NCBI GenBank assembly: GCA_019695185.1
Contig: JAIBAN010000027.1
Span: forward strand, 1 to 64,000
Direction: 5' to 3'
Origin: Blastocatellia bacterium
Lineage (GTDB): Bacteria > Acidobacteriota > Blastocatellia > Chloracidobacteriales > Chloracidobacteriaceae
DNA: 64,000 nt
A program made the translations under genes and the position numbers. Each line of letters begins with the position of its first letter. Within the stretch, counting starts at the first letter, position 1. Positions 4,132-57,892 of this stretch are shown here, piece by piece. The notes under the pieces are model-generated. The model ran no database searches and was not told the DNA's origin. It saw only the letters and a list, made by a program, of their open reading frames with translations.

Positions 4132-4151
4132 AATGGTCTCCGGGTTGGTTG

Positions 4152-4454: not shown

Positions 4455-4485
4455 AGTTTATTGCCTTGAGTGTGAGGAATCGGGG

Positions 4486-5145: not shown

Positions 5146-5164
5146 AGTCTTTCCCTTTTGTCTG

Positions 5165-5938: not shown

Positions 5939-6040
5939 AAAATCTGTATGTCGGCGATTTGAGGCTGTGGGTTGGGACCGGATGATATTACAAAAACAGA
6001 TGGGGAGGGAACACCTCACAACCAATTCGGTACCCGGCAA

Positions 6041-7426
6041 TCAACTTACATCCGGACGCTGGTGGGGAACTTCCAGCGGGTATCGCCCTGTGTAACAGGC
6101 GGTACAAAAATGCAGACCTTCATCGGCTCCGCACGCCAACAGCAAACCCTCATGACTCAGGTACCCCAAACTGTCAGCATTGATGAAGGTCCGGATTTCC
6201 TCAAGTGTCGAGTTGGCAGCAATCAATTCCTTATGAGTCGGTGTGTCCACCCCGTAATAGCAGGGTGAAATTGTGGGCGGACAACTGATTCGCAGGTGAA
6301 CTTCGGTTGCACCGGCCCGCCGCACCATTTCGACAATCTTGCGGCTGGTGGTTCCCCGCACAATTGAATCATCCACCAGAATCACCCGCTTCCCCTCAAT
6401 CAAATCACGCACGGGATTCAATTTGACCTTGACGCCGAAATGGCGAATTGACTGTTGTGGTTCAATAAAGGTGCGTCCCACATAATGATTGCGGACCAAG
6501 CCAAAACGGAAATTGATTTTTGACTGGGAAGAATATCCAATTGCGGCAGCCACTCCCGAGTCAGGAATGGGAACCACAATGTCGGCTTCAACCGGATGCT
6601 CCAATGCCAGCCGTTTCCCCATTTTGTGACGGCTTTTATTGACACTGCGGCCAAAAACCCGGCTGTCAGGCCGTGAAAAATAGACATGCTCAAAGATACA
6701 ATAGGCTGATTCGCGGGCCGGCAGGGGAAATTCCGTATGCAGACCGTCTTTGTCAACCACAATCACCTCTCCCGGCTGGACCTCCCGCACATAGGTGGCT
6801 CCAATCAGGTCAAAAGCACAGGTTTCCGAGGCTATCACCCAACGTCCGTCAAGTTCACCCAGGCACATCGGGCGAAAACCCCGCACATCCCGCACCGCAA
6901 TCAGACCTTCGGGCGTCAAAATTAAAATTGAATAGGCTCCCTCAATCGTCCGAAAGGTTTCAACCACTGCGGTATAAAGTGAATCACAGCGGGAGCGGGC
7001 CAGTTTATGGAGGACCACTTCCGTGTCACTGGTGGATGAAAAAATCGCCCCCTCGGCTTCCAGTTCTTTCCGCAAGGCATCAGCAAAGGGAAGGTTTCCA
7101 TTGTGGCAGATGGCGATTTCGCCCCGATGGCATTTGATCGAAAAGGGCTGGGCCTCGTTCAGACTGACATCGCCGGCGGTTGAATAACGGACATGGCCGA
7201 TAGCCGATGGTCCAGGTAACCGACGGAAAACCTCTTCGGTAAAAACCTCGCTGACATGACCCATTCCCCGCTCACTGAACAATTTTTTTCCATCGGTGGA
7301 AACAATGCCGGTTGACTCCTGTCCCCGATGTTGGAGGGAATAGAGGCCCAAATAGGTCAGGCGCGCCGCTTCGGGATGGTTCCAAATTCCAAAAACGCCG
7401 CACTCATCATGAAACTTATCAAACAT
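6041..7426 (-). CDS. purF: Amidophosphoribosyltransferase
   Basis: This enzyme performs the first committed step of purine synthesis: PRPP plus glutamine gives 5-phosphoribosylamine. The 461-residue length is normal. Cys9 (DECGVFGIW) is the glutaminase nucleophile after a short propeptide. The type-II glutaminase signature LQHRGQESTGI is present, and the PRPP loop VILVDDSIVRGTTS is at about residue 350. The C-terminal cysteines (ACGADEGLHFCTACYTGRYP) resemble those of the Bacillus-type [4Fe-4S] enzymes. No strong Shine-Dalgarno is visible. No other pur gene is nearby. Confidence 0.97.
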   Translation of the reverse strand: MFDKFHDECGVFGIWNHPEAARLTYLGLYSLQHRGQESTGIVSTDGKKLFSERGMGHVSEVFTEEVFRRLPGPSAIGHVRYSTAGDVSLNEAQPFSIKCHRGEIAICHNGNLPFADALRKELEAEGAIFSSTSDTEVVLHKLARSRCDSLYTAVVETFRTIEGAYSILILTPEGLIAVRDVRGFRPMCLGELDGRWVIASETCAFDLIGATYVREVQPGEVIVVDKDGLHTEFPLPARESAYCIFEHVYFSRPDSRVFGRSVNKSRHKMGKRLALEHPVEADIVVPIPDSGVAAAIGYSSQSKINFRFGLVRNHYVGRTFIEPQQSIRHFGVKVKLNPVRDLIEGKRVILVDDSIVRGTTSRKIVEMVRRAGATEVHLRISCPPTISPCYYGVDTPTHKELIAANSTLEEIRTFINADSLGYLSHEGLLLACGADEGLHFCTACYTGRYPLEVPHQRPDVS

Positions 7427-7448
7427 AGGATTGAGTTTGGGGGTTTGA

Positions 7449-7560
7449 ATTGCGGGTTTTGAGTTGCAGGCACGATTCTTTGCAATCTATTTGCCACTTC
7501 AGACCACACACCGCTTCGGTGGCTGCGCGTCAGAACTCAAAACTCACTTCTCAAAATTGA
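7449..7560. repeat. Paired inverted heptad arrays, TTTTGAG family (short)
   Basis: A short left arm (about 7449-7472, GCGGGTTTTGAGTTGC) faces a right arm (7531-7560, CAGAACTCAAAACTCAC plus TCTCAAAATTG). It lies between purF and the small gene at 7564, with the right arm directly after that gene's stop. Confidence 0.7.
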
Positions 7561-7563
7561 TCT

Positions 7564-7734
7564 TCAGGGAAAAAGATACATGAGCCAGGCAATGACCATG
7601 CCGATACCAACAAACGAGGCAAAGACCCGCATTCCATAAAAGAGACATTTTTTCGGATGCCTTATATCGCCACTGATTCCGGCAAACACCGCCGAAACAA
7701 AAAAGGCGAAAAGAACCATGGCTAAGAGGTGCAT
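7564..7734 (-). CDS. Small two-helix membrane protein (56 residues)
   Basis: An uninterrupted leftward frame encodes 56 residues. It starts MHLLAMVLFAFFVSAVFAG and ends with a second hydrophobic stretch, VFASFVGIGMVIAWLMYLF, before TGA. A short basic loop (DIRHPKKC) lies between the two helices, a typical layout for a small integral membrane protein. It fills the gap exactly between two inverted heptad arrays, as true genes here do. No family is recognised. The neighbouring gene 7888-8301 also encodes a small membrane protein. Confidence 0.65.
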   Translation of the reverse strand: MHLLAMVLFAFFVSAVFAGISGDIRHPKKCLFYGMRVFASFVGIGMVIAWLMYLFP

Positions 7735-7748
7735 AATTTTTTTGGATG

Positions 7749-7880
7749 CTGGGTTCAGGAGTTCAGGGGTTCAGGGGTTTATGATTTATGATTTTTGATC
7801 TGAAGTCCAGTTTGTATCTGAAGGTTCCGGTCTTTGAAACTCTGAACCTAAACCCTGAGTCCTCGACCCTGAACCCAGAA
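7749..7880. repeat. Paired inverted heptad arrays, GGGTTCA family
   Basis: The left arm (7749-7780) has GGGTTCAGGAGTTCAGG-type units. The right arm (7837-7880) has TGAACCTAAACCCTGAG-type units. A second short motif, TTATGATTTATGATTTTTGAT, adjoins the left arm inside the spacer. The arms fill the gap between the 56-residue gene and the DUF6677 gene. Confidence 0.85.
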
Positions 7881-7887
7881 TTGATTC

Positions 7888-8301
7888 TTATGGCTTGCGC
7901 CCGGAAGCAATGTCGAATGCGTCCAGAACCACCAGATAATTCAACAGACCGGCGACTGCGATAAAATTGTTGCCGTATTCAAATGTGGTTAACACTGGCT
8001 GGACTTTTTGCCCAACATTTAAAAGAAACAACAGCGGGTACAATAAGCCAATTCCCAGGTCGCTGGTAAAAAACAATGGCGAAAGCCGGTCTGAATCGGT
8101 CGGCAAATACAAGTGACCATTCATGAGCAACCCGACCAGCGTCATGCCATAAATACAAACGGCAAACAACACTCCGCGTCCGTAACGTCCCAGGACCACA
8201 TGCCCAGCTCCAGGAGCCAAAAACCCGGCGACGCAGGCCATCAGCCGTTTCATCCCATCCACTGGTTTCAATTGTATTTCCGGTTTGGTGTTTTCTGTCA
8301 T
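7888..8301 (-). CDS. DUF6677-type membrane protein
   Basis: The 137-residue protein has an N-terminal soluble stretch and hydrophobic segments at about residues 19-35 (LMACVAGFLAPGAGHVVLG), 44-62, 85-95 and 110-125. The GFLAPGAGHVVLGRYGRG motif and the GHLYLP segment match the DUF6677 family as I know it, which is common in Acidobacteriota. The function is unknown. It is co-oriented with nrnA upstream and separated from it by a heptad-array gap. Confidence 0.7.
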   Translation of the reverse strand: MTENTKPEIQLKPVDGMKRLMACVAGFLAPGAGHVVLGRYGRGVLFAVCIYGMTLVGLLMNGHLYLPTDSDRLSPLFFTSDLGIGLLYPLLFLLNVGQKVQPVLTTFEYGNNFIAVAGLLNYLVVLDAFDIASGRKP

Positions 8302-8306
8302 TTCTA

Positions 8307-8434
8307 TTCAGGGTCTGGAGTTCAGGGTTCAGGGTTTTGTTTAAACCAGCTTTGAAGTAGTTGACCTTAATTTGACAACCTGTATTGCAACTTCTTGGGG
8401 TTGGTTTTTGCCCTTGGCCCCTGAACCCTGAACG
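8307..8434. repeat. Paired inverted heptad arrays, GGGTTCA family
   Basis: The left arm (8307-8338) reads CAGGGTCTGGAGTTCAGGG and onward. The right arm (8418-8434) reads CCCCTGAACCCTGAACG. The spacer is about 80 nt. The right arm starts 7 nt beyond the nrnA stop codon. Confidence 0.85.
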
Positions 8435-8441
8435 CTGTGTT

Positions 8442-9410
8442 TCAATCCGCTGCCACCGGGATAATTCCCATGGCAGTTTGCAGTGAACCCAAAATCTGTT
8501 GTTCAGCAATTTCCAGCTTTCCTTTGACCGAACAACCCGAAGCATTTTTATGACCGCCACCGCCGAATTTTTCAGCTATTTTGGCAACGTTGACGGTTCC
8601 TTTTGACCGAAGGCTGATGCGAAAATGTTCCGGCTGCATTTCCTTGAAAAAGGCCACCACTTCGACCTCACCTACCGACAACGGATAATTCACAATGCCA
8701 TCCAGGTCATCCTCGGTGGCTCCGATTTGGCCCATCAGGTTGTGCGGCATGACAACCCAGGCAATCCGCCCGGTTTCGTCCCGTTCCAGACTGGCCAACA
8801 CTTTGCCTAATAACTTTATTTTGCTGTAGGGATTTGAATAAAAGAGGGAATGTGAAATATGGGCCGGGCGGGCCCCGCGCTTGACCAGCTCCGAGGCGAT
8901 TTTGAAGGTGCGCTCAGTTGTGTTTGAGAAATGAAACGAACCCGTATCAGTCAACAGTGCCGTATACACACATTCTGCAATTTCCTGATTAACCGTCACT
9001 CCCAAGGCTTTGCAGAGGTTGTAAATCATTTCGCCCACGGCGGCTGCCGTCGAATCAATCCAATTGATGTTTCCAAAAAGAGCGGTGGTGCTGTGGTGGT
9101 CAATATTGACGACAAACTGTTTTTCCAGACCGCCAATTGCCGGGCGGTTCATGTCGCTGCACTCAATCACAAAGATGGCGTCAAAGGGTTCCTCCACCTC
9201 GGCCATGCGTTGCACTTCCTGCGCACCTGGTAAATCCCGATAGGAGTAGGGGACGTTATCCTTAAAGGCGACCACAACCTCTTTCCCTAACGATTGCAAT
9301 GTCCAAAAGAGCGCCAGCGACGATCCCATACTATCGCCGTCCGGTCGTACATGGGAGGTAATCAAAAAGCGTTGTTTCGACTCAATAAGTTCAACCACTT
9401 GACTGAGCAT
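8442..9410 (-). CDS. nrnA: DHH/DHHA1 phosphoesterase, NrnA-type oligoribonuclease
   Basis: The 322-residue protein has the DHH-family motifs. They are VRPDGDSMGSSLAL near the N-terminus, a conserved Asp in FVIECSD, the NIDHHSTT motif, and the DHHA1 substrate loop GGGGHKNASGC at about residue 285. NrnA proteins degrade nano-RNA and dephosphorylate 3'-phosphoadenosine 5'-phosphate. An AAGGGGAA Shine-Dalgarno lies 6 nt before the ATG. Position downstream of rbfA is typical, as nrnA often follows infB-rbfA. The 124-nt gap to rbfA shows nothing notable. Confidence 0.92.
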   Translation of the reverse strand: MLSQVVELIESKQRFLITSHVRPDGDSMGSSLALFWTLQSLGKEVVVAFKDNVPYSYRDLPGAQEVQRMAEVEEPFDAIFVIECSDMNRPAIGGLEKQFVVNIDHHSTTALFGNINWIDSTAAAVGEMIYNLCKALGVTVNQEIAECVYTALLTDTGSFHFSNTTERTFKIASELVKRGARPAHISHSLFYSNPYSKIKLLGKVLASLERDETGRIAWVVMPHNLMGQIGATEDDLDGIVNYPLSVGEVEVVAFFKEMQPEHFRISLRSKGTVNVAKIAEKFGGGGHKNASGCSVKGKLEIAEQQILGSLQTAMGIIPVAAD

Positions 9411-31840: not shown

Positions 31841-34800
31841 ATGCGGCAAACCTCCAGTTCATTTCAGCAAAAATCAAAAAAATCCTTTTCCATGCGCTTG
31901 TTTCATTTCCCAGCCCGTTTGCGCTGGCTGGCTGCCTGCGTTCTGGTTTTGCTGGCTTACACGGCCTGGAATATCCAGCGCCCCGTGCCGGTGGCTGCTG
32001 CCGGAACCATCAGTCTGACCACCATCGGCGCGACCTACAGCCAGGATTTTAACTCCCTGTCAAACAGCTCGCCGTCAAGTACGGTTCCCATCGGCTGGGA
32101 TTTTGTGGAAACCGGCGGCTTGGCAGATGGATCCTATGCTGCGGATGACGGCTCTCTCCCAAGTGGGGACACCTACAGCTATGGTTCCACTGGGGCGAGC
32201 GACCGGGCCTTTGGCACGCTCAGACAGGACGGTTTTACTTCCTCGGTCATCGGAGCTTCGTTCACCAACAATACCGGCAATACAATCGTGGGGCTCAATA
32301 TCGCCTACACGGGGAAACAATGGCGACTGGGGACCACCGGGCGGGTTGACCGGCTGAATTTTGAATACAGCCTTGATGCCTCCAGCCTCTCAACCGGCAC
32401 CTGGACCCCGGTGACCGCCCTCAATTTCACCGCGCCGCTCACGACTGGACTCATCGGAGCCAAGGACGGAAACGCCGGCGGGAACCGTACGGCCATCGCC
32501 TCGGCTATTTCCGGTTTGTCCATTGCAAACGGGGCCACTTTCTGGATTCGCTGGACGGATTTTGACGCCACCGGTGCCGAAGACGGGCTGGCGGTGGATG
32601 ACTTCTCCCTGACGCCCAGCACCTGCACCCAAACGGTGACCAACGGCAATGACAGCGGGCCCGGTTCGCTTCGGGATGCCATTGCCAATGTCTGTACCGG
32701 AGGGCTGATTACGTTCCAAGCCGGTGTCACCACGGTGAATCTGACCAGCACGCAACTCTTCATTAACAAGACCCTGACGATTGACGGCGGGGTTTCCGGC
32801 GTGACGGTCACGCGGATGGTGGGCAGTCCGAATTTCCGGATTTTCCTCGTTAACAGCGGAACCGCCGCCGTTCTCAGGAATCTTACCGTTTCGAATGGGA
32901 ACCTCAGCTCCGGCACTGGCGGCGGTTTTTTAGTCGGTGGCACGCTCATGCTGACCAACTGCACCATCAGCAACAACTCAGCTCCATTTGGCAACGGCGG
33001 CGGGCTCAATTGCAATTCCAGCAGCATGGTGACGCTGACCAACTGCACCATCAGCAACAACTCAGCTTCAGGTGGCAGCGGCGGCGGGCTCAATTGCAAT
33101 TCCGGCAGCACGGCGACGCTGACCAACTGCACCGTCAGCAACAACTCAGCTTCATCAGGCACCGGCGGCGGGCTCTATTGCAATTCCGGCAGCACGGTGA
33201 CGCTGACCAACTGCACCGTCAGCAACAACTCAGCTTCACCAGGCGGCGGCGGCGGGCTCAACAACATCGGCACGCCGACGCTCAACAACACGATTGTGGC
33301 GCAAAACACCGCTTCCAATAATTCAAACATTCAGGGAACTGTTGGCGGAACAAGCTCATTCAACCTCATCGGAGTCGGCGGAACCGGCGGACTGACGAAC
33401 GGCGTCAACGGCAATCAAGTGGGTGTGGCCGCACCCGGACTCGGCACTCTGGGTTTGAACGGCGGAGCCACTCCAACCGTGCCGCTCCTGGCCGGGAGCC
33501 CCGCGATTGATGCCGGAACCGCCACCGGAGCGCCTGCCACCGACCAGCGCGGCTTTGGCCGTGCGGGAGCCACCGACATCGGAGCCTTTGAATTCAACGG
33601 CAGCGACCCCGGCACAACCGTGATTTCCATCAACCGCAACGGAGCGGCCATCCTCTGTGGCGGCACGTCGGTCAGTTGGACGGTAACCTTTGCCGCCCCG
33701 GTGACGGGCGTCGCCAGCAGCAATTTCGCCCTCGCCAACTCCGGCTTGACCGGCCCCGCCATCACCGGGGTGACTGGTTCGGGCAACCAGTGGACAGTGA
33801 TGGCCAACGTCGGGACCGGCCCCGGAAACCTCGGTTTGAATATGGTCAACAGCAGCGGGGTGGTTCCGATTGTGTCCAACCTGCCTTTCACCGGACAAGT
33901 CTTTTCGGTTGGTTCGAGTCTGACCGTCACCGCCGGGAGCAACTCCCCGCTGGTGGCCGGAGCCACCCTCAACCTGACCGCCACCCCAGGCGGAGCCGGT
34001 ACGTTTACCTTTGCCTGGACCGGTCCCGGCGGATTTACCTCCAGCCAGCAAAATCCCAGCCTGAGCAATGTCACGGCAGCCAACAGCGGCACCTACACCG
34101 TGACCATGACTGAAACCGGTTCGGGCTGCACCGGCATGGCCAGCACCCAGGTCGCACTGGAACTGAGCGGCTCAGTTGGACTTGGAGTGGGTTCCACCAA
34201 CTACACGGGTGGCACGCCGCCCGTCAATCCGGCCAATCCGAGTTACGGCACCTTCCTCATCAACACGACGCTCACCAACACGTCGGGCGGAACCCTGCAA
34301 GCGCCCCTCTTCTTCCGGGTCACCATACTTGAAAAGGTTCCGGTTGTTCCAAGTGACCCGATGCCCTACTGGCTTGATTCGCGGGACGCCGGTTCCCCGC
34401 CCGATGTGGGTGCCGTGCAAACCGTCGCGGCCCCGCTGGCCAACAATGCCAGCACGCCGGTCACCTTCCGCGTGGCGGTGGCCCAGTCCAACCGCGCCAC
34501 CTTCCGCTTGTTTGTGGATTTCTTCGGCGCGACGAATACTTCACCGGTCGTCAGAAAAATCGGCGGGTTTGAACTCACTCCCCAGTTCCCCGTTCAAAAC
34601 CTGAGCAGTGAGAATTCTCAGCCCTCAATTCTCAGTCCTCAGTTCGGGGATGACACTCAGTCCTCAGTCCTCAGTCCTCAGTCCTCACTGATTGGAGGTG
34701 CCGGTTTGCAATCCGGTTCAACCGTGGCGGTGGACCCGAAAGAACCACGTCGCATGGCGGTTGCGGCCAACAATTATGAACTGGGCACGGTGGCCGTCCG

Positions 34801-35851
34801 CTACACGGAGGATGGCGGTGCCAGTTGGCGTGAATACCGGGCCAGCCGGACCCTGGGCAGCAGCACCTATGCCACGGCCTTTGACCCGGCCCTTGGGTAT
34901 GACCGCAACGGTTCGCTTTTTGTGACCTATGCCCTCGCCAACGTGACCGACAACTCTTCCGCTGTGGCCATCGCCAGCAAGGGACTCGACCGGCTCACCT
35001 TCAGTCCGGCGGTGGCGCTGGCCAGTTACAGCCACGCTGAACAAACCTTGCCCAGTCGCACGGCACTCGCCATTGAGGGAAGCAAAATTGTTGCCGTCTG
35101 GGAAAGTCTCAGCGGCGGCAGCCAGACCAGCCGCATCCATGCCATGACACTCGCTCCCCGGCGTTCCGTGGTGGTGGCCGAAGGTGGCGTCTCTCAGCCC
35201 ACCGTGACCGTCACTCCCGAAGGCCGGATTGTGGTTGGCTGGAACGACTGGGCGAATCGCCAGTTGAAGGTGGCCACCAGCCTGGACAATTCAACCTACA
35301 GCGACCCGGTGACCGTGGCGGAAACCGGCATCGGGTACGGACACCGGATTCCAGCCCTGGCCGATGTGCTGGCCCTTTCAGGTTTTTCCATCAAGGCCGA
35401 CCCGACCGGCAACGGAAGGCTCTATGCCTGCTTCACGAGTCTCGGAAACGGTCTGGATGTGTTTCTCAGCCGTTCATCCGACAACGGCAAAACCTGGGAC
35501 AGCCCCGCCCTGGTGAATGACGACAAGAGCGACGCCAACCAGTTCAATCCGGCTTTGGCCGTCGATGCCAGCGGCAACGTAGCGATTAGCTTCTGCGACA
35601 CCCGGCTGGACGGCACCGGCTCCACCACCCATGTCTTTCTGGCTCGTTCCCGGAATTCAGGAGTCAGCTTTGAACCCAACGAACAGGTCACGACAGAAGC
35701 CTCCAATACCTCCGCCTCCAGAATAACCCGCATCCGGGGAGCAAACCTCGGCGAACGCATGGGGATTGCGCCAGCCGCCAAAAGTGGATGGATACTCGTC
35801 TGGACCGACACCCGGCTCGGCAGCGAGGATATTTTCCTCACGACCAAATAG
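31841..35851 (+). CDS. Large exported beta-helix / Ig-like / BNR-repeat protein
   Basis: The 1336-residue protein has a signal anchor at about residues 27-48 (LRWLAACVLVLLAYTAWNI). A choice-of-anchor-like beta-sandwich (about 55-260) follows. A CSLREA-like segment (SGPGSLRDAIANVC) leads into a right-handed parallel beta-helix (about 285-560) with 28-residue repeats LTNCTISNNSAS. Ig/PKD-like stretches (about 690-770) and a C-terminal sialidase-type BNR region (about 950-1336, SRSSDNGKTWDSPALV) complete it. It is probably a secreted or surface protein for adhesion or polysaccharide contact. A heptad array is translated at about residues 921-949. An alternative start is 31892. The gene is divergent from the LytTR regulator. 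Confidence 0.85.
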   Translation: MRQTSSSFQQKSKKSFSMRLFHFPARLRWLAACVLVLLAYTAWNIQRPVPVAAAGTISLTTIGATYSQDFNSLSNSSPSSTVPIGWDFVETGGLADGSYAADDGSLPSGDTYSYGSTGASDRAFGTLRQDGFTSSVIGASFTNNTGNTIVGLNIAYTGKQWRLGTTGRVDRLNFEYSLDASSLSTGTWTPVTALNFTAPLTTGLIGAKDGNAGGNRTAIASAISGLSIANGATFWIRWTDFDATGAEDGLAVDDFSLTPSTCTQTVTNGNDSGPGSLRDAIANVCTGGLITFQAGVTTVNLTSTQLFINKTLTIDGGVSGVTVTRMVGSPNFRIFLVNSGTAAVLRNLTVSNGNLSSGTGGGFLVGGTLMLTNCTISNNSAPFGNGGGLNCNSSSMVTLTNCTISNNSASGGSGGGLNCNSGSTATLTNCTVSNNSASSGTGGGLYCNSGSTVTLTNCTVSNNSASPGGGGGLNNIGTPTLNNTIVAQNTASNNSNIQGTVGGTSSFNLIGVGGTGGLTNGVNGNQVGVAAPGLGTLGLNGGATPTVPLLAGSPAIDAGTATGAPATDQRGFGRAGATDIGAFEFNGSDPGTTVISINRNGAAILCGGTSVSWTVTFAAPVTGVASSNFALANSGLTGPAITGVTGSGNQWTVMANVGTGPGNLGLNMVNSSGVVPIVSNLPFTGQVFSVGSSLTVTAGSNSPLVAGATLNLTATPGGAGTFTFAWTGPGGFTSSQQNPSLSNVTAANSGTYTVTMTETGSGCTGMASTQVALELSGSVGLGVGSTNYTGGTPPVNPANPSYGTFLINTTLTNTSGGTLQAPLFFRVTILEKVPVVPSDPMPYWLDSRDAGSPPDVGAVQTVAAPLANNASTPVTFRVAVAQSNRATFRLFVDFFGATNTSPVVRKIGGFELTPQFPVQNLSSENSQPSILSPQFGDDTQSSVLSPQSSLIGGAGLQSGSTVAVDPKEPRRMAVAANNYELGTVAVRYTEDGGASWREYRASRTLGSSTYATAFDPALGYDRNGSLFVTYALANVTDNSSAVAIASKGLDRLTFSPAVALASYSHAEQTLPSRTALAIEGSKIVAVWESLSGGSQTSRIHAMTLAPRRSVVVAEGGVSQPTVTVTPEGRIVVGWNDWANRQLKVATSLDNSTYSDPVTVAETGIGYGHRIPALADVLALSGFSIKADPTGNGRLYACFTSLGNGLDVFLSRSSDNGKTWDSPALVNDDKSDANQFNPALAVDASGNVAISFCDTRLDGTGSTTHVFLARSRNSGVSFEPNEQVTTEASNTSASRITRIRGANLGERMGIAPAAKSGWILVWTDTRLGSEDIFLTTK
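32951..33286 (+). repeat. Four near-identical 84-nt coding repeats
   Basis: Units start at 32951, 33035, 33119 and 33203, each opening CTGACCAACTGCACC and encoding 28 residues of beta-helix. Near-identity at DNA level, including third positions, points to recent tandem duplication or ongoing homogenisation, so copy number may vary between strains. Confidence 0.92.
34601..34688 (+). repeat. Heptad array translated inside the beta-helix protein
   Basis: Inside the reading frame, inverted-type units of the GAGAATT and TCAGTCC families run from 34601 to 34688, including four contiguous TCAGTCC units at 34657-34684. They encode a Ser/Pro/Gln-rich linker (SILSPQF, SSVLSPQSS) between the Ig-like and BNR regions. 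The heptad is not a multiple of three, yet the frame stays open. Confidence 0.93.
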
Positions 35852-36011: not shown

Positions 36012-39000
36012 TCAAACCGGATTGTCCGGTGCCTTCAATTCAAACCAAAACGTGCTGCCTTGGCCCGGCTGGCTTTCAACGCCAACCTTGCCGCCGTGGG
36101 CTTCCACCAGTTGTTTGACAATGGATAACCCCAATCCGGTCGAAGACTCTCCGCCGGTCGGACGGGCGCTCAGACGTTCAAATGCGCCAAACAATCGTTT
36201 TTTGTCATTTTCGGTCAATCCCGGACCTTCATCCCGCACGCTGACCCGAACCCAACCGTTTCCGTTGGAGACGGTGACTTCAATTGTTTTTCCAAGGGGC
36301 GAATACTTGACGGCGTTGCTGATGAGATTATCAAGCACCTGGGTGATGCGCTCCGGGTCGGCGTTGACCGGAGCGGCGGAACTTCCCTGGCAAACCAGCT
36401 TTTGGTTTTTGGCTTCAGCCTGGGGCAAATGCCAGCCCGTCACGGTTCCAACCAGGAGCAGGAGGTCAACTGGTTGGGGAGTCAGGTTGATGGCACCGGA
36501 ATCGAGTGTTGCCATTTGCAGCAGCGAATTGATGAGGGCAATCACTCGTTCCGTTTCGCGTTTGATATGGCCGACGTATTCGCCACAGGCTCCTACGGCG
36601 GCGTTGGTTTTGAACGCTTCCAGCGTCAGTTCGGCAAATCCGGCAATCGTAAAGAGCGGGTTTTTCAAATCGTGGGCCGCAATGCCCAGCAAGCGGGTTT
36701 TGAATTCGTTGGCTTTTTCGGTTTTCTCTTTTTCAAGGCGCAGGCTTTCGGTTCGCTCGCGGACCAGTTTTTCCAACGCGAACGCCTGTAAAGTCAGTTG
36801 CCGGACGCGGATTTGATACACCGCAAACCCGGCCCCGGCCACCACCAGCAGGACCAAAGCCTGGAACCAGCGGGTTTGGTAGAAAAACGGCCTGATGGTA
36901 AATGAAATGGTTTTTCCGGCTTCATCCCAGATTCCATCGCTGGAACAGGACTTGACCGAAAAGCGATAGGTTCCCGGTCCCAGATTGGTGAAAAACGCAG
37001 TCCGCCGGGTACCAACCTGAATCCAGTTGGAATCGGAGCCTTCCAGCCGATACTGAAACCGGATTTTTTCAGGTACGGCAAAACTGAACCCGGTGTAAGT
37101 GATTTCCAGGCGGTTCACTCCCGGCTCAAACGTCAGTTCCGGCAAGGCATTTCGGTCCACACCGTTTACCGAAATGGTTTCAATGAGCGTACCGGGCGGC
37201 TTTCCGTCTCCTTGGTCCAACGTCAGGCGGGTGACGCCGTTGATCGTGGGGTACAAAACGGTGCCATCCGTCAAACGGCAAAAAGCGTTTTGAAATCCCC
37301 CGTTGGTTTCGCTGGCGGACATGCCGTCGGCCTTTGTGTAACCAGTGCTGAAGACCCGTGAAATCCGCCCTTCACAAAAATCCTCCAGTTCCCGGCGATT
37401 GACACGCGACAGTCCGCGATTGCCGCTCAACCAGAAATTGCCCTGCCGATCCTCAAAAACCGAAGACACAATGTCGTCAAACAAGCCGTCCTGGGTTCCG
37501 ATTTTTGTGACCCGCCCATTTTTGACCCGATAGAGGCCGCCACCGTAGGTGCCGGCCCACAAGGTCTTTTCCGCATCCAGATAGAGCCCTCTCACATTCG
37601 GATTGCTGAGGCCGTTTGCGGTGGTGATGGAGGTAAAAACGCCGTCCTTGAAACGAAACAACCCGTTGTCGGTCCCCATCCAGAGCGAACCATCGGGAGC
37701 AGCCAGCAAATGACGCACCCAACTTTGCGGTGCATTGGGCAAATGGGAAAAGCCGTGAAACTTTCCGTCCGGAGTGCGTTGGGCGAGTCCGGCTCTGGTT
37801 CCGATCCACAGCGTCAGCCCATCGGCGGCCACCAGCACCGAGGCGATACCGGAATCAAGCAGGCCGTCCCGATCCCTGTGCAACGTGACCTCTCCGTTTT
37901 GGTATCGGCGCAGTCCGTGCTCAAAAAGCCCCATCCAAATGGCCCCGGTTTTATCCTCGGCCATCGCCCACACACACCGGATGAGCAGACTTTCCACCAC
38001 GCCGCCCTGCAACCGGTGGATGCCGTTGCAACTGGTGCTCATCCAGATTGCGCCGGTCCGGTCCTGAAACACCGCCGTCACGCTGGGGTCTGTGACGGCC
38101 TTGATCGGAATGGCTGAGAGCTTGCCTTGCGCCAGACAAAACAATCCCTGAACCGCAGTACCAATCCAAAAATTGCCCTCCCGGTCCTGGAACAGGCTTT
38201 GAATTGGGGTGTTGGTCAAACCTGGTACTGACAGTGGGCGAATTCCCTTGTCGGTGCAAATGGCCACGCCATTCTTGGTGGCAACCCACAGGTTTCCGTC
38301 CCGGTCTTCCAGTAAATCCACCACCGTGTTGTCGGGCAAACCGTCCACTGTCTGGTAGCGGCGGATCCGCCCATCCGGCTGGATAACACAGAGCCCCTGT
38401 TCAAAATTTCCAAACCACAGATTTTGACGGTGATCCACGATCAAGGGAGCGGTGGGCACTCCAGGAAGCCCTGGAACCAACTGAAACCTTCCTTGTTGAA
38501 AAACAACCAGACCCTGTTCGCTTCCGATGAAAATCCGCCCGTCGGGATAGGCAACCACGGCTTGCATCTTGAAGCGGGGGTCCTCTGGGAGCGGTACAAA
38601 ACGGGTTCCATCCCAACAACGCAGCACCTCACCGCAAATCCAGAGATTGCCGGCGGCGTCCTCACAAAAACTGTTCACGTTGCGCAAAGCCTGGGCTTCA
38701 GGTTCGGTGAAAACATGGATTTCATCCCGCACGGGATCAAGATACATGAGACCCGGACCTTCGGCACCGCACCAAAGCCACCCACGCCGGTCCCGAAAGA
38801 CAGTTATCAAACGATTGGTGGGGAAAGACGGACTGTGGTCCGTGTAGGTCCGAAACCGGACTCCATCAAACCGGGCCAACCCCCCAAACGTGACAATCCA
38901 GAGATAGCCGTCGCGGGTTTGGGTCATGCCCATGATGGTATTTTGCGGCACCCCCTGCTCAACCTGCCATTGCCGACAGGTGGAAAAGTGAAAGGGGCTG

Positions 39001-39158
39001 CCGGTGGGCAGGGATTCCCGATGGAAGCAGGGCGGTACCCCTTCGCGGACCTCAGCCCAGCCCGGCAGATTAAACGCCAGGAGTTGGCACAAAATCCCGA
39101 AAATACAGAACCGGACATGACGATGTTTCATCAGCTTGGATGGCCGGGAACAGGTCAA
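36012..39158 (-). CDS. Propeller (Reg_prop) sensor histidine kinase
   Basis: The 1048-residue protein has an N-terminal signal peptide, then about 600 residues of two-component-regulator propeller repeats (RDRRGWLWCGAEGPGLMYL, DREGNFWIGTAVQGLFCL and others) forming periplasmic beta-propellers. A Y_Y_Y domain (about 690-755) and one transmembrane helix (about 763-782, WFQALVLLVVAGAGFAVYQI) follow. The cytoplasmic part is a HisKA domain with phosphoacceptor His at about 826 (GIAAHDLKNPLFTIAGF) and an HATPase domain (LDNLISNAVKYSPLG, GLGLSIVKQL). No receiver or AraC domain is fused, unlike the Bacteroides hybrids, so a separate regulator is needed. It converges on the beta-helix protein gene. 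Confidence 0.95.
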   Translation of the reverse strand: MTCSRPSKLMKHRHVRFCIFGILCQLLAFNLPGWAEVREGVPPCFHRESLPTGSPFHFSTCRQWQVEQGVPQNTIMGMTQTRDGYLWIVTFGGLARFDGVRFRTYTDHSPSFPTNRLITVFRDRRGWLWCGAEGPGLMYLDPVRDEIHVFTEPEAQALRNVNSFCEDAAGNLWICGEVLRCWDGTRFVPLPEDPRFKMQAVVAYPDGRIFIGSEQGLVVFQQGRFQLVPGLPGVPTAPLIVDHRQNLWFGNFEQGLCVIQPDGRIRRYQTVDGLPDNTVVDLLEDRDGNLWVATKNGVAICTDKGIRPLSVPGLTNTPIQSLFQDREGNFWIGTAVQGLFCLAQGKLSAIPIKAVTDPSVTAVFQDRTGAIWMSTSCNGIHRLQGGVVESLLIRCVWAMAEDKTGAIWMGLFEHGLRRYQNGEVTLHRDRDGLLDSGIASVLVAADGLTLWIGTRAGLAQRTPDGKFHGFSHLPNAPQSWVRHLLAAPDGSLWMGTDNGLFRFKDGVFTSITTANGLSNPNVRGLYLDAEKTLWAGTYGGGLYRVKNGRVTKIGTQDGLFDDIVSSVFEDRQGNFWLSGNRGLSRVNRRELEDFCEGRISRVFSTGYTKADGMSASETNGGFQNAFCRLTDGTVLYPTINGVTRLTLDQGDGKPPGTLIETISVNGVDRNALPELTFEPGVNRLEITYTGFSFAVPEKIRFQYRLEGSDSNWIQVGTRRTAFFTNLGPGTYRFSVKSCSSDGIWDEAGKTISFTIRPFFYQTRWFQALVLLVVAGAGFAVYQIRVRQLTLQAFALEKLVRERTESLRLEKEKTEKANEFKTRLLGIAAHDLKNPLFTIAGFAELTLEAFKTNAAVGACGEYVGHIKRETERVIALINSLLQMATLDSGAINLTPQPVDLLLLVGTVTGWHLPQAEAKNQKLVCQGSSAAPVNADPERITQVLDNLISNAVKYSPLGKTIEVTVSNGNGWVRVSVRDEGPGLTENDKKRLFGAFERLSARPTGGESSTGLGLSIVKQLVEAHGGKVGVESQPGQGSTFWFELKAPDNPV

Positions 39159-50626: not shown

Positions 50627-50694
50627 CCAGCGAAAAACAGCCTGACGTTTCGTTTCAATCACCCCCAAATCCACCTGAAGCAATTGAGGAGCCC

Positions 50695-53600
50695 ATGAGA
50701 CAGTGGATGCTGGTGTTTTTTCTCGCTGTGGGAGTCATCGGCACGTTGTTCTTACCTGGCGGCGCAACCCAGGCTCCCGCCCTGCCTGCCCCAAAGCTGA
50801 CGATGCCAGCCAACGATTTGCCTCCGGGGCGCAGTTTCTTCCGCTTGCACAATGAACAAAACGGCCTCAGCCAAAAATCGATTGTAGCCATTGCCCAGGA
50901 CCGGCAAGGATATATCTGGATTGGTTCAGACGATGGAGCCGCCTATTACAACGGTCGGACCTGGACGACCGTGAATATGCCAAATCCTCAGGTTTCAAAT
51001 GAAGTCCGGGCCATTTGCCCTTCCCAGGATGGAAGTATCTGGTTTGCGCGGGGAGCCGGCGGGCTGGCCCGCTTGTACCAGAACCGGTGGACCAGTTTTG
51101 ATGAGACAAACTCCAAACTCCCCAAAGGCTCGATCTTGGCGTTGCATGAGACGGTTTCCCCAACGGGAACCCCAATCCTCTGGGTCGCACTGGAAACCGG
51201 TTTGGCCTGTTACACCAACGGCCATTGGTTTGTGGAGGACTCTCCCACATCCGACTTTTCCAAAACCACCATCCTCTGTTTTTTGGAAACCGTTGCTTCC
51301 AACGGAAAACATACGCTGTGGGCGGGAACCAATGCAGGGTTGTTTTATCTTGACCTTGAACAACCCGGTGTGCCAGGCGATTCCAAACGATGGGCAACCC
51401 ATGCGGGGCCACAGGCCGAACTGCTCAAAAAAGAGGTTTACGCTCTTGCCGAACAAACTCTGCCGGGCGGAGAACGGTTTTTGTGGGTTGGCCGGGACCA
51501 AGACCTGATTGCCTTTGCTTTTGAACGAAGCGCCACCCGCCCCTTGCCTGATTGCCTGACGCGCTTCCCGCTCCAATCCTCTCCCTTGCCCGCCAGCATT
51601 TTCTCGCTGTTATCCAGCCGTTCTGCCCAGGGAACGCCGATTTTATGGGTTGGCACCAGCGGGGGACTGGCCCGGATTGAAGGCAGGACGCCCTCAAACA
51701 GCGAAAGGGCCGAAACAATCCCCTTTTCTCCGGTTCCAAACCCGGCTGATTTGGCGGCCTGGACCGTCCTTTCCGATCAAAATTCAAACTTTCCCATCAA
51801 TGGAGCTGCCTGTTTACTCGAAACTGTTTCGGGAGACCGGCATACCTTGTGGGTGGGCACTGCCGGGAATGGAGTGGCGGCCTGGGAGGATGGTCGCTGG
51901 GTCACCTATGACACCGCCAGTTCAGGCGTCCCGAATAATCTGGTTTTTGGTTTGGCTGAAACGGTTCAGCCGGACGGGTCTTCGACCTATTGGTTTGGAA
52001 CGGACGAAAACGGCCTCGCCCGCTACGAAAACGGACGCTGGACCCTTTTCAATTCGCAGAATTCAGGAGTTCCCAAATCCATCAATTGCTTGCTGGGCAC
52101 CAAAACGCCGGACGGTCGCCCGGAACTCTGGTTTGGATCCAAAAATTATTTAATTGGCCGTTTCGACGGGTCAGCCTGGCAGTTTTTCAATCTTTTAGAA
52201 TCCCCTTTGAGCACCAGGACCGTGTGGGACCTGCTGGAAACATTTTCAGTCACCGGAGAACGGACCATTTGGGCGGCTGGCGGGGACAAGGGCACCCTGC
52301 GGTTTCGCGGAAACCAATGGACCTTGCTCGCAGCGGAACATCCCGACCTGCCTCAAAATGAAGTGCGCCAACTGGCACAAACCCGCAATCGCGCCGGTCA
52401 TCCGGTCATCTGGATGGCAACCAGCGGCAGCGGGCTGATTCGCTACGAAGATATTCCGGCCCCTGGAAAAGCTGCCGTTTCGGTTTTCACCACTGCCAAC
52501 TCCGGGTTACCGAATAATCAAGTGTATTCCCTGTTGCCTTCGGTCTCAGCCAATGGCGAACCGGTCCTGTGGGTGGGCACTGCCGCCGGGGTGTGTCGCC
52601 TGAACCTGAATCAGATTCAAGAACCAGGGCTGGTGCTCTCCACCGAAAGTACCCCTTCCATTCCGGACAACACGATTTTCCAAATTCGGGAAGATGCCCA
52701 AAAGCGGCTCTACCTCTTTACGAATAAAGGAATTGTGCGGCTGACCCCGAATGGGGAAACTTCCGGTTTTGAGGTCTCTACCTTTACCACAGAGGACGGA
52801 TTGCCGGTCAACACCTGTAACGGTGAATGCTCGATGGTGGACCGGCGGGGACGGATTTGGGTGGGTACAATCAGAGGTGCAGCGGTCTTTGACCCGGCGA
52901 AACGAATGGAAGACCGCGCGGCCAAACCCCTTGTCATCGAGCATGCCTGGCTGGGCGGCCTTCCGTTTCGCGCCGACCGAAAAGATGTCCTCCCCCATGA
53001 ATCATTGATTGGCCCAGGCGGCGACTCATTGAACGGCGTCAGCTTGGCGTACCATGAAAACCGGCTGGTTTTTGAGGTATCGCTGCTTGGAGCCGGGAAA
53101 AGTTCTGAAACCAGGTATCGCACCCAACTGGTTGGGCTGGAGGAAGAGCCCACCGCCTGGAAATCTGATTTTAAGCGCGAATACCTGTCCCTGCCCGCCG
53201 GAAGTTATACCTTCAGAGTCTGGGGTAAAGATTCCGCCGGCAATGTCAGCGGCCCTCAGGAAGTATCGTTTGTCATCCGGCCCGCACCCTGGCTGACGTG
53301 GTGGGCTTTTGCTGTTTATGCCTTGTGCGCCACCGGACTGGTTTATGGCGGTGTGCGCTGGCGGTTGAACGCGTTGCGCCAGCGCAATGAACTGCTGGAA
53401 CACAGCGTCGTCAAACGGACGGAGGAACTTTCCCACAAAAATCAGGAACTGGACCGCAAAGTCGAAGAACTGGCGCAAAAAAACACGGAACTGGCCCGTT
53501 CCCGCGAGGAAATCCTCCAGTCGTATCAACAAGCCGGGCGGATTTTCAACGCATTGGCTGAAGCCTTGCCCGGCAGCGTCCTGGACGACAAATACCGGCT

Positions 53601-54753
53601 GGAGGAAAAAATCGGGTCCGGCGGATTTGGAGCCGTCTTCCGCGCCACCCATCTGACCCTTAAAAAAAGCGTAGCCGTCAAGGTTTTTCGCCCCATTCAG
53701 GGAAATGCCTCGACTGAAAGCCTGGAGCGCTTCAAACGCGAAGCCGTTTCCACCTGCCGAGTCAATCACCCGAATGCCGTGGCCGTGATTGATTCGGGAG
53801 TGGCCAGCACCGGAGTTGCCTACCTTGTGATGGAATTGCTGAACGGCTGTACTCTGGCTCAGGAACTCAAACAATCCGGAAGATTCACCGCCCTGCGTTG
53901 CGCCGAGGTCGTGTTGCCCATTTGCAGTGTTTTGGCCAAAGCCCACGCCGCCGGAATTGTTCACCGCGACATCAAACCGGACAATATCTTTCTGCACCGC
54001 ACCGCAGAAGGGGAAGAGGTCGTCAAAGTGGTGGACTTTGGGATTGCCAAATTACTGGGAGAAGCTCAGGAAGCTGAAATGGAAACCCTGACGGCAACCA
54101 ACCACATTGTCGGGACGCCGGTGTTTATGGCCCCCGAACGCCTGCTGTGCAAGCCTTATGACGGAATTTCCGATGTCTATAGCGTGGGGGTGCTGGCTTA
54201 CCTCATGCTCACCGGGAAATTTCCATTTTTTTCCCAGGCAGGCATTGGCGGAATCATTCTGCAACAAATGACCCTGGAACCGCCTCCCTTGCGGCAGTTC
54301 AATCCAGGGCTTCCTGAAGCCGTGGAAGCAGCCATCTTGCAAGCATTGGCCAAATCGCCTGAGCACCGCCCCACCCCCGCTGAGTTTGCCCGCAGGTTGG
54401 GGCAGGCAGTGGGCCTGGAAACGCCGCAAGCCGGGCTGACTGATACGGGGGCAGCCGAACGTTTTTCGGCATCCACGGCTGATTCGCAAGTCACCAAAGA
54501 GTTTACCGAAGCCGCTCAAGCGGAAACCCTGGGGCTGCCCCCCGCTTTTGTGGCCACCCTGCAAATTGAGCGCCGGGAAACACCGGACAGCAAGCCCAAA
54601 GCCGCGTTTTACCAATTGGAAACGGCTCAATATGTGACAGCCACCGAAGAGGCGGAAACGGTTCAATCCCCAATGCCTTTTCAGCCGGTGACCAATCCGA
54701 CGAACTCTGACGCCAGCCAAACCGAGGAAAACCCGCTTTCAGATGGTGTGTGA
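50695..54753 (+). CDS. Propeller (Reg_prop) receptor Ser/Thr protein kinase
   Basis: The 1352-residue protein has an N-terminal signal anchor (about 4-22), then about 740 residues of propeller repeats (DRQGYIWIGSDDGAAYY, TLWVGTAGNGVAAWEDGRW and others). A Y_Y_Y domain (about 785-860), a transmembrane helix (about 866-888) and a coiled coil (about 895-955, HKNQELDRKVEELAQKNTEL) follow. The output domain is a Hanks-type kinase (about 963-1232). It has GSGGFGAVF, the Lys in VAVKVF, HRDIKPDNIFL, VDFGIAK and APERLL. A Thr/Pro/Glu-rich tail ends it. The sensing half is that of periplasmic histidine kinases, but the output is Ser/Thr phosphorylation. No phosphatase gene is adjacent. All catalytic motifs are intact. 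Confidence 0.93.
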   Translation: MRQWMLVFFLAVGVIGTLFLPGGATQAPALPAPKLTMPANDLPPGRSFFRLHNEQNGLSQKSIVAIAQDRQGYIWIGSDDGAAYYNGRTWTTVNMPNPQVSNEVRAICPSQDGSIWFARGAGGLARLYQNRWTSFDETNSKLPKGSILALHETVSPTGTPILWVALETGLACYTNGHWFVEDSPTSDFSKTTILCFLETVASNGKHTLWAGTNAGLFYLDLEQPGVPGDSKRWATHAGPQAELLKKEVYALAEQTLPGGERFLWVGRDQDLIAFAFERSATRPLPDCLTRFPLQSSPLPASIFSLLSSRSAQGTPILWVGTSGGLARIEGRTPSNSERAETIPFSPVPNPADLAAWTVLSDQNSNFPINGAACLLETVSGDRHTLWVGTAGNGVAAWEDGRWVTYDTASSGVPNNLVFGLAETVQPDGSSTYWFGTDENGLARYENGRWTLFNSQNSGVPKSINCLLGTKTPDGRPELWFGSKNYLIGRFDGSAWQFFNLLESPLSTRTVWDLLETFSVTGERTIWAAGGDKGTLRFRGNQWTLLAAEHPDLPQNEVRQLAQTRNRAGHPVIWMATSGSGLIRYEDIPAPGKAAVSVFTTANSGLPNNQVYSLLPSVSANGEPVLWVGTAAGVCRLNLNQIQEPGLVLSTESTPSIPDNTIFQIREDAQKRLYLFTNKGIVRLTPNGETSGFEVSTFTTEDGLPVNTCNGECSMVDRRGRIWVGTIRGAAVFDPAKRMEDRAAKPLVIEHAWLGGLPFRADRKDVLPHESLIGPGGDSLNGVSLAYHENRLVFEVSLLGAGKSSETRYRTQLVGLEEEPTAWKSDFKREYLSLPAGSYTFRVWGKDSAGNVSGPQEVSFVIRPAPWLTWWAFAVYALCATGLVYGGVRWRLNALRQRNELLEHSVVKRTEELSHKNQELDRKVEELAQKNTELARSREEILQSYQQAGRIFNALAEALPGSVLDDKYRLEEKIGSGGFGAVFRATHLTLKKSVAVKVFRPIQGNASTESLERFKREAVSTCRVNHPNAVAVIDSGVASTGVAYLVMELLNGCTLAQELKQSGRFTALRCAEVVLPICSVLAKAHAAGIVHRDIKPDNIFLHRTAEGEEVVKVVDFGIAKLLGEAQEAEMETLTATNHIVGTPVFMAPERLLCKPYDGISDVYSVGVLAYLMLTGKFPFFSQAGIGGIILQQMTLEPPPLRQFNPGLPEAVEAAILQALAKSPEHRPTPAEFARRLGQAVGLETPQAGLTDTGAAERFSASTADSQVTKEFTEAAQAETLGLPPAFVATLQIERRETPDSKPKAAFYQLETAQYVTATEEAETVQSPMPFQPVTNPTNSDASQTEENPLSDGV

Positions 54754-55325: not shown

Positions 55326-57872
55326 TTAGCCCAGCGGCGGCGAGACAATAAAACGGTTGCCGCCGCCATCTTTGGCCAAATCCAGTGCCAGCGTGGCAGC
55401 CGCGACAATTCCTTCCGGAGTGGACTGAAACGGTCCGGCGGTGACCACCCCGATACTCACAGTGACCCATTCACCTGAAGTCGGATGCGGGAACCACAAG
55501 GCTTCGACCATCCCGCGCATCCGCTCCGCATAGGCGGCTCCGGCTTCCCCATTCATGCCGGTGACCAGGAACAAAAATTCCGCATTACCGCAATAAGCCA
55601 GAAAACGGTCGTCCGGGGTCACTTCAGCAGCCAGCATGTCTGCAATGGGATTCAGATAGGAATTGCGGGTTTCCGGGTCGCCAGTGCCATCGTTTTTTCC
55701 AAAACCATCCACCTTGATTTTGAAAACGGTCAGCGAACTGCCTGTAGCCGATACGAAGTGCCAGGCCAGTTCCAGTTGTTCCAGAAAAAGGGCGTTGCCG
55801 GGCAGTTCCGCCAGCCTGCCGGAAAGATGTTCCACAATGGCAACCGTTGAAATCTCGCCCGTGCGGATATCGGGCGGAAGCGTCCAGACCGGGCCGGAAT
55901 CGGTGGAAACCGGTTCCGGAACATTCTGAAAAGAGACTTTGAAAGCGGTTGAATCCTCTGGCAACACCCATGCCTGTCCTGGGGACGGCTGGTGTTGAGC
56001 CAGATTGGCAGCCAGTTCAATGCGCATCATCGCCGATGCCGGAAGTTCCACGGTGGATTCAGGCAAAACCCAGGTTTTTTCCTCTACCGGAGGCGGCGGC
56101 AGGTTGGCCGTCCGGCTGACGGCCCAATCCGTGGGAGGCAGCGTGGTGGCCACAACCGGAGGCACCGGTAAAGCCGGGGTGGTTTTGACCGGTTCAGACA
56201 AATCAGATGTCTCCAGCGGAGCGGCGGCGGGTTCCGTTTCTGATTCAGTAAAATCGGCCAGGGCGCTGACCATGTCAAACCCTTCAATCGCAGACAGTTT
56301 CTTTCCTAAAGGACTGGTCCAGCCGGTCGGTTGCAATGGTTCCAGGGATGGATCCAGTTGATAGGCTTCGACCCGCATTTCCTCAGCGGATTTGGTCTGG
56401 TGGTGCATTTCATGAATGCGGGCCAGTTCCAGGCATTGCCGGGCGGCCTTCCCTTTGTAACCGGCATCCAGATAACACTGTTTCAACTGCTGGCGGAGTT
56501 CAACACTTTCCGGTTGACCGGCCACCATCCCCTCCAGCAACCCAATCCGGGCGGAAACCAATTCCGGATTTTTGGTAAGCAGGGTTTCCAACAGTTCCAC
56601 ACTGTAATCGCCCGATACCTGCATCGCAGCAGCCTTGTTCGTCAGCCCTTCCAGAGTTTCGGCTTCAACTTCGACTTCCCTTTCAACCGGGTTCACCGGT
56701 CCGATATTGGCCAATTTGATGCGGAAGGTTTTTCGTTTGGGGGCCAAATGCACCAGCCGTTCCAGCGTTTGGCGGGCGGTGGCCTGGGCATGCTGCTGCA
56801 ACGCCATTTCCACCAGTGTGTTGAGGGTGGTGGTCAAATTCCGCTTTTCCCCCATCTGTTCATAAATGTCCGCCAGCACTTGCAAGGCAGTCAGGTTTTT
56901 GTGGTCGGCCTCCAGAATTCCTTTCAACAAAGCCGTGGCCTTTTTCTTATGCCTCCGGTTGGTGATGTAGGGAACACACTGACGAATCACATCCACTGCC
57001 CGATGGTATTTGCGCTCATCCAGAAACAGCCGGGCGACTTCGAACAAATATTCGTAGCGGGAGGAATCCATCCCTGCCAGCCGGAGAAAAGAAACCTCCG
57101 CCTCGTCCAAAAAACGGGCGCTCAGGCAGGTCCGCCCCAACAGCAGCACCAAATCCGCATCATCGGGAAACTGGTGCAGGAGTTCGCGCAGCATTTCCAC
57201 CGCGCCTTGGGCATCGCCATGTTGGAGCGAATAGTCCACCAAGGCTTTGAGTGCGGGTTTGGAAGCCGGTTTGACCAGCAATGCCTTTTGAAAGGCATGC
57301 AGTCCGTCCACCACCTGCCCTTGTTTGTAAAATTCGCGGCCCGCCCAGATATAGGTTTCGTGTGCTTCGTCCACGAAATCGCACCCGAACAGGGCTTCGG
57401 CCAGTTCCATCTGAATGTGAATGTTTTCCGGATAGAGCTTGACAGCCTCTCGCAACACCTTGACGGCATTCACATACTGGTGGGTGTTGCGGCAGGCTTG
57501 GGCGGCGCTTAGATAATATTGCAACGCCTCAGCAGGCTGGCCCTGTTTGCGCACCAAATCAGCCAGGACCATGGCGATTCCGTAATCACTGGGGTCAAGG
57601 CGGTTGATTTTGCGGTACAGGGCGATGGCCTGGGGGGTTTGATTGTTTTTTCGGTAGTTTTCCGCCACCTTGAGGTATTTAAGGATGGCGTCCTTGTTTC
57701 GTTTGACCTGGGCATAGAGACCGGCCAGCGTCAAATGGACAGTCAGGTCCGTGGGCTCGGCCTCAAGAACTTTCTCGTATTCCTTGATGGCAGCCTCAAG
57801 TTTCCCTTGCTGGACGTACTTTTCAGCGGCTTTGACGGACTTTTCCTTACTAAATCCAAAGAAAAAAGACAT
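55326..57872 (-). CDS. TPR protein with degenerate GGDEF domain
   Basis: The protein has 848 residues from ATG at MSFFFGFSKEKS (AAGG 6 nt upstream). A long solenoid of tetratricopeptide repeats (about 12-500, beginning KYVQQGKLEAAIKEYEKVLEAEP) is followed by a Pro-rich linker (about 500-670). The C-terminal domain (about 690-845) has the outline of a diguanylate cyclase: LTVFKIKVDGFGKND, then VTVSIGVVTAGP and LDLAKDGGGNRFIV. The GGDEF signature reads CGNAEF (about 758), so cyclase activity is unlikely. It may bind nucleotide or partner proteins. Confidence 0.85.
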   Translation of the reverse strand: MSFFFGFSKEKSVKAAEKYVQQGKLEAAIKEYEKVLEAEPTDLTVHLTLAGLYAQVKRNKDAILKYLKVAENYRKNNQTPQAIALYRKINRLDPSDYGIAMVLADLVRKQGQPAEALQYYLSAAQACRNTHQYVNAVKVLREAVKLYPENIHIQMELAEALFGCDFVDEAHETYIWAGREFYKQGQVVDGLHAFQKALLVKPASKPALKALVDYSLQHGDAQGAVEMLRELLHQFPDDADLVLLLGRTCLSARFLDEAEVSFLRLAGMDSSRYEYLFEVARLFLDERKYHRAVDVIRQCVPYITNRRHKKKATALLKGILEADHKNLTALQVLADIYEQMGEKRNLTTTLNTLVEMALQQHAQATARQTLERLVHLAPKRKTFRIKLANIGPVNPVEREVEVEAETLEGLTNKAAAMQVSGDYSVELLETLLTKNPELVSARIGLLEGMVAGQPESVELRQQLKQCYLDAGYKGKAARQCLELARIHEMHHQTKSAEEMRVEAYQLDPSLEPLQPTGWTSPLGKKLSAIEGFDMVSALADFTESETEPAAAPLETSDLSEPVKTTPALPVPPVVATTLPPTDWAVSRTANLPPPPVEEKTWVLPESTVELPASAMMRIELAANLAQHQPSPGQAWVLPEDSTAFKVSFQNVPEPVSTDSGPVWTLPPDIRTGEISTVAIVEHLSGRLAELPGNALFLEQLELAWHFVSATGSSLTVFKIKVDGFGKNDGTGDPETRNSYLNPIADMLAAEVTPDDRFLAYCGNAEFLFLVTGMNGEAGAAYAERMRGMVEALWFPHPTSGEWVTVSIGVVTAGPFQSTPEGIVAAATLALDLAKDGGGNRFIVSPPLG

Positions 57873-57892
57873 AGCCAACCTTAGCTGTTTGC

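Follow-up and report, generated by a model that had tools for sequence, protein, structure and literature searches.

The gene at positions 50695-54753 of the 64,000-nucleotide stretch of DNA analysed here (the window) encodes a receptor Ser/Thr kinase of 1352 amino acids, in which a periplasmic sensor is joined to a Hanks-type kinase by one continuous coiled coil. Comparison of sequences establishes the architecture, the catalytic residues, the interchange of outputs behind related sensors, the common clade of the kinases and the heptad phase of the coil. On this basis we propose, with a probability of roughly three in four, that a phase-fixed coil of the ERT type sets the state of the kinase, which would serve as an interchangeable output module. 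The most informative part of the protein was overlooked by the first-pass annotation of this DNA: the coil is a signaling helix (S-helix) with strict heptad phasing.

Architecture of the receptor kinase

The window belongs to an 8.3-Mb draft genome in 222 contigs that is 99.7% complete. The features of the gene, with a propeller histidine kinase of the same window for comparison, are as follows.

50695..54753, +, receptor Ser/Thr kinase gene: 1352 aa plus stop, ATG start, uninterrupted ORF
50686..50691, +, Shine-Dalgarno-like GAGGAG, 3 bases ahead of the ATG
50695..50769, +, signal peptide or N-terminal hydrophobic segment, aa 1-25: the protein's strongest hydropathy peak, mean 2.1
50830..52932, +, periplasmic double beta-propeller of ~14 blades, aa ~46-746, boundaries approximate: Reg_prop (Pfam, 48.9 bits, E = 3e-13), [LI]W.G[TS] blade repeats, AlphaFold2 model and Foldseek match to BT4663
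53095..53277, +, Y_Y_Y beta-sandwich, aa 801-861: 23.7 bits in hmmscan, under the Pfam cut-off of 26.6, and 29.7 bits, above it, in a six-frame genome scan
53302..53361, +, single transmembrane (TM) helix, aa ~870-889: WAFAVYALCATGLVYGGVRW; the continuous helix of the AlphaFold2 model begins here
53395..53427, +, S-helix core LEHSVVKRTEE, aa 901-911: ERT-type motif, signature described in PMC1592074
53371..53556, +, continuous coiled-coil helix from TM to kinase, aa ~893-954: AlphaFold2; LE to LPG spacing of 57 aa, 1 mod 7
53539..53574, +, conserved pre-kinase linker RIFNALAEALPG, aa 949-960: F, L and P invariant in alignments
53593..54387, +, Hanks-type Ser/Thr kinase domain, aa 967-1231: Pfam PF00069, 159.7 bits against a cut-off of 31.7, E = 1e-46; PknB fold
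54427..54750, +, C-terminal Ser/Thr/Glu-rich tail, aa 1245-1352, without a Pfam match
36012..39158, -, comparison gene, a propeller-Y_Y_Y-S-helix histidine kinase: Pfam Reg_prop x8, Y_Y_Y, HisKA and HATPase_c; TTG start

Both regions of the receptor were modelled as monomers with AlphaFold2. The sensor (aa 27-866) was predicted with a pLDDT of 85.5 and a pTM of 0.86, and its best match in the PDB, over the whole length, was the periplasmic domain of BT4663 (4a2l/4a2m; E = 1e-35 to 1e-38, TM-score ~0.7), followed by BT3049. The blade repeats, partly read by eye, fit about 14 blades arranged as two 7-bladed propellers. In the model of aa 866-1242 an unbroken helix (model residues 4-89, pLDDT 87.5) starts in the TM segment, continues as the coil and reaches the pre-kinase linker; a PknB-like kinase follows, its activation loop predicted with low confidence. 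The G-loop, AxK, HRDxxxxN, DFG and APE motifs are all present, and AxK, HRD..N and DFG are kept in 119 of the 119 relatives examined. By its residues the protein is a catalytically complete Hanks kinase, with predicted enzymatic activity; the C-terminal tail is possibly an autophosphorylation or docking region. Pfam, the models and the catalytic motifs thus bear out the first-pass reading that a sensing half shared with histidine kinases, a membrane helix and a coil end here in a complete Hanks kinase, and the gene at 36012-39158 is, as also claimed, a histidine kinase with Reg_prop and Y_Y_Y.

The closest structural counterparts, Bacteroides BT4663 (a heparin sensor) and BT3049, have the same double 7-bladed propeller and Y_Y_Y periplasmic sensor followed by a TM helix, but their output is a histidine kinase with response-regulator parts. 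Pfam detected neither HisKA nor HATPase_c in the 1352-aa receptor, which sets it apart from the Bacteroides-type hybrids and from histidine kinases. Glycan sensing by the receptor, suggested on first reading, is an unproven analogy to BT4663, and the scan of flanking genes turned up none for polysaccharide utilisation. The kinase half resembles Mycobacterium tuberculosis PknB and the PASTA kinases in fold and sequence (36-37% identity). In those proteins, however, the kinase is N-terminal and the sensor, built of PASTA repeats, C-terminal, with no S-helix; in the receptor the order is reversed and Pfam gave no PASTA match, in agreement with the topology first proposed. M. tuberculosis PknD has one six-bladed propeller in a kinase-first order, and is not known to have a Y_Y_Y domain or S-helix. 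Its Ser/Thr kinase is combined with a beta-propeller outside the cell (PMC2877116, PMC6213207), so propeller Ser/Thr kinases as such are already known, and HK/Y_Y_Y receptors are common.

Two other genes of the window deserve mention. A TPR-array protein with a terminal GGDEF domain (55326-57878, -) is convergent to the kinase gene, and beside the propeller histidine kinase lies a gene for 1336 aa (31841-35851, +) that gives beta-helix, Ig-like and BNR-like matches.

A signaling helix upstream of Ser/Thr kinases

The S-helix was described by Anantharaman, Balaji and Aravind (2006, PMC1592074) as a coil of ~40 aa with an ERT signature, placed between two signalling domains. In that survey a S/T kinase was never seen downstream of an S-helix, and the pairing was called incompatible (PMC1592074). 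We assigned S-helices by motif rather than by the original authors' profile, and by this measure a coil of the ERT type lies between the TM/sensor and the kinase, reading KRT in the 1352-aa receptor and ERT in many relatives. Most members carry LExKVxERTxEL just inside the membrane, and alignment positions L36, E37, R43 and T44 of the S-helix are nearly invariant among 54 relatives. As in the published cases, the ERT coil has a sensor on its N-terminal side and a catalytic domain on its C-terminal side; contrary to PMC1592074, the catalytic partner in 71 distinct proteins is a S/T kinase with intact catalytic residues.

Abundance of the architecture and of its kinase module

A profile scan of the source genome gave 144 Pkinase matches, at least 150 Reg_prop matches and 76 frames with Y_Y_Y, 28 of which also hold Pkinase. 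The remaining Y_Y_Y proteins are mostly histidine kinases (HisKA, HisKA_3 and His_kinase types), with single cases each of SpoIIE, GGDEF and AAA-type ATPase outputs. The architecture, whose frequency the first-pass annotation had left to be checked, is not singular, with 28 fusions in its own genome. We found no description of Reg_prop/Y_Y_Y or of an S-helix fused to Pkinase in the open-licence literature, the part that was searched, so priority is not certain.

The coil-kinase module was found in 14 of 14 sampled genomes of the source order, two-contig genomes included. Of 396 genomes sampled across the phylum, only 14 had it (E = 1e-20), 7 of them from the source order. Besides propellers, the inputs of the same kinase module are REC, GAF, PAS, 7TMR-DISM and HisKA-REC: it follows REC in several acidobacterial classes, GAF in Planctomycetes (L198, L207), 7TMR-DISM in L135, L155 and L317, and PAS in L148. 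Among proteins of other genera, the closest relative shares 45% identity with the 50695-54753 protein over 1258 alignment columns. Nothing but the kinase itself matches between the neighbourhoods of the gene and its nearest relative (L002), the flank of L002 being short.

These counts bear on whether the gene could be a chance fusion or an assembly artefact, in which a propeller histidine-kinase gene was joined to a kinase gene. A draft in 222 contigs leaves room for such errors, but the ORF is uninterrupted and preceded by a ribosome site, the architecture occurs 28 times in the source genome, the module is present in every sampled genome of the order, and another genus has a relative that aligns over 1258 columns. 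Because the architecture recurs, we regard the artefact as refuted and extremely improbable.

Several loci hold variants of these proteins. The propeller-Y_Y_Y protein of L105:1264-5385 starts with a CarboxypepD_reg-like domain and ends in an AAA-type ATPase. The propeller protein of L072:708-3875 has no more than a short piece of the kinase; its gene adjoins a full-length paralogue and is likely a decaying duplicate. A propeller-Y_Y_Y-SpoIIE phosphatase directly adjoins a same-clade kinase gene in L076 (1393-4755 and 2-1360), a candidate kinase/phosphatase pair. Tandem Y_Y_Y/S-helix/Ser/Thr-kinase genes (L191:2-2254 and L191:2430-6164), the complete one with Reg_prop, lie on a MAG contig labelled as cyanobacterial; their presence there may reflect transfer, or a binning error or contamination.

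Repeated exchange of outputs

A tree of the sensors of 89 propeller proteins, mostly from the source genome, contains two deep classes, one like the 50695 Ser/Thr kinase and the other like the 36012 histidine kinase. Each class contains both kinds of output: 17 kinases and 21 histidine kinases in the first, 21 kinases and 19 histidine kinases in the second. Across the tree the kinase and HK labels each require 20 changes, and well-supported branches force 11 of these changes for the kinase and 13 for the HK label. The kinase-domain tree unites all propeller-linked kinases with those joined by a coil to REC, PAS or other inputs in one clade (SH-aLRT 100), apart from the other STKs of the genome. 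Receiver-linked kinases branch near the base of this clade with weak support, and for this reason the module possibly originated as a response-regulator-like protein.

The two trees support the domain exchange suggested by the first-pass annotation, as a repeated plug-in of one kinase module, but the pair in the window is not the exchange pair. A direct swap between the 50695 and 36012 genes was ruled out, as their propellers belong to different classes. The 36012 histidine kinase has its nearest relative in a second HK of the source genome. Where sister proteins differ in output, they are ~40-60% identical through Y_Y_Y, the TM helix and the ERT motif and ~20-30% identical beyond. As identity drops after the S-helix, the exchange point lies inside the coil.

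Two loci encode single polypeptides in which HisKA is followed by a receiver and then by the coil and Ser/Thr kinase (L187:2130-5984 and L320:634-2478), possibly a His-Asp relay ending in a Hanks kinase. In L067, adjacent genes (617-4651 and 4938-8558) have sister propeller sensors, one with a histidine kinase output and the other with a Ser/Thr kinase. One might then suppose that the kinase serves mainly to tune, by Ser/Thr phosphorylation, the histidine-kinase pathways that use the same sensors; the union of HisKA, REC and this kinase module in single proteins, and the many sister propeller HKs of the genome, including the tandem HK/STK pair, speak for it. The 1352-aa receptor, however, has no REC or HisKA, and no two-component gene is its immediate neighbour on either side. 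We consider such a tuning role doubtful and favour a receptor whose own coil sets the state of its kinase.

A heptad rule at the sensor-kinase junction

The spacing from LE of the ERT motif to LPG of the linker, counted L to L, is 1 mod 7 in 71 of 71 proteins and takes ten lengths (43, 50, 57, 64, 71, 78, 85, 92, 106 and 120 residues). On the kinase tree, where many branches are weak, this amounts to at least 34 length changes, each a multiple of seven. The bare minimum for ten lengths is 9 changes, and the probability that nine independent, heptad-blind changes would all fit is 7^-9 (~2e-8). One pattern hit, L160, was dropped, its motif being a false one inside a TM helix.

Upstream of the coil, the distance from the TM tryptophan to LE is 31 aa in 48 of 50 proteins, and the other two proved on inspection to be anchor misassignments. 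Control distances in the same proteins (HRD-DFG, HRD-APE, G-loop-HRD and Y_Y_Y-LE) differ for the most part by 1-3 residues and show no seven-residue periodicity. An artefact of pattern matching is ruled out by the TM tryptophan, an independent anchor with the same outcome, together with the non-periodic controls.

Other junctions obey rules of the same kind. The distance from REC to LPG is 60, 67, 74 or 81 residues, 4 mod 7 in 16 of 16 receiver-linked kinases. Receiver proteins with a Ser/Thr kinase output occur in several acidobacterial classes (L130, L134, L146, L154, L166, L192 and L212), always with the receiver-to-kinase distance at 4 mod 7. In the propeller HKs the distance from LE to the phosphorylated His ranges from 34 to 83 residues and is 6 mod 7 in 16 of 16 genuine motifs; three HKs at 0 mod 7 were excluded, the matched sequence lying inside an inserted domain rather than at the juxtamembrane motif. 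One core position of the kinase-linked coil is hydrophobic in 91% of heptads in the S-helix half and 77% in the kinase half, in the same phase. Juxtamembrane segments of a second type, which lack ERT, fall into two phases four residues apart, a coiled-coil stutter (13/19 versus 5/19, with one other), so the register is not universal.

The heptad rule could be read more simply: the coil would be a stable dimerisation spacer, ligand would gather receptors, and spacing would change by heptads through the need for an unbroken coiled coil rather than through transmission of register. A continuous coiled coil would by itself penalise non-heptad indels, and kinases of the PknB/PknD type are activated by dimerisation (PMC6213207). 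There is also a slight excess of matching codons at +7 (393 versus 353 expected), too weak a signal to sustain recent 21-base slippage as the source of the rule, although coiled-coil stability or 21-base slippage could account in part for length changes by heptads only. Against a mere spacer, natural coils tolerate stutters and skips and the sister linker type has them, yet none of the 71 ERT linkers does, despite lengths of 43-120 aa. Histidine kinases with shared sensors obey the same rule, and in the related histidine kinase YF1 linker length governs activity with seven-residue periodicity, the coil register controlling signalling (PMC6798134). We therefore judge the spacer reading unlikely, and prefer a coil whose phase sets the kinase. 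The seven-residue dependence on sensor-kinase coil length is shared with YF1 and the LOV histidine kinases (PMC6798134); for YF1, a histidine kinase, it was tested by experiment, whereas for the Ser/Thr kinase set it is known from comparative sequence alone. No report of a strict coil phase in the Hanks kinase family was found in the open-licence literature, although priority is not certain.

Proposed mechanism and implications

In the proposed mechanism, the double propeller and Y_Y_Y sandwich would bind a ligand and alter the packing of a receptor dimer; for BT4663, a model in which the sensor closes like scissors has been put forward (Lowe et al. 2012, as cited in PMC8534201). The change in packing would pass through the TM helix into the single continuous cytoplasmic coiled coil, the ERT signaling helix. 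With its register fixed relative to the kinase, the coil would set whether the two Hanks domains trans-autophosphorylate, so that, as in histidine kinases, the signal would reach the kinase through coiled-coil register. Dimerisation, activation by rotation or scissoring of the coil, the direction of control, the ligand and the substrates are all inferred parts of this scheme. The gene itself would be one of dozens that arose by joining an S-helix or coil, the RIFxALxEALPG linker and the kinase to inputs of the histidine-kinase type.

Little is understood of how sensors switch bacterial receptor Ser/Thr kinases, the leading idea being dimerisation. On balance we favour, with somewhat less assurance than the proposal for this receptor, a wider class of receptors and receivers in which a phase-locked signaling helix controls Ser/Thr kinases, one kinase module can take the place of histidine kinases, SpoIIE phosphatases or diguanylate cyclases on shared sensors, and activity depends on register. 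Such a class, if real, would contradict the published rule against pairing S-helices with S/T kinases. In more than 70 proteins the helix from sensor to kinase has been lengthened or shortened many times, by whole heptads only, beside sister histidine-kinase receptors; this predicts that the response to insertions in the coil will have a period of seven. If this is true, Hanks kinases would come under the coiled-coil grammar of two-component systems, and bacterial receptor Ser/Thr kinases could then be designed along such lines.
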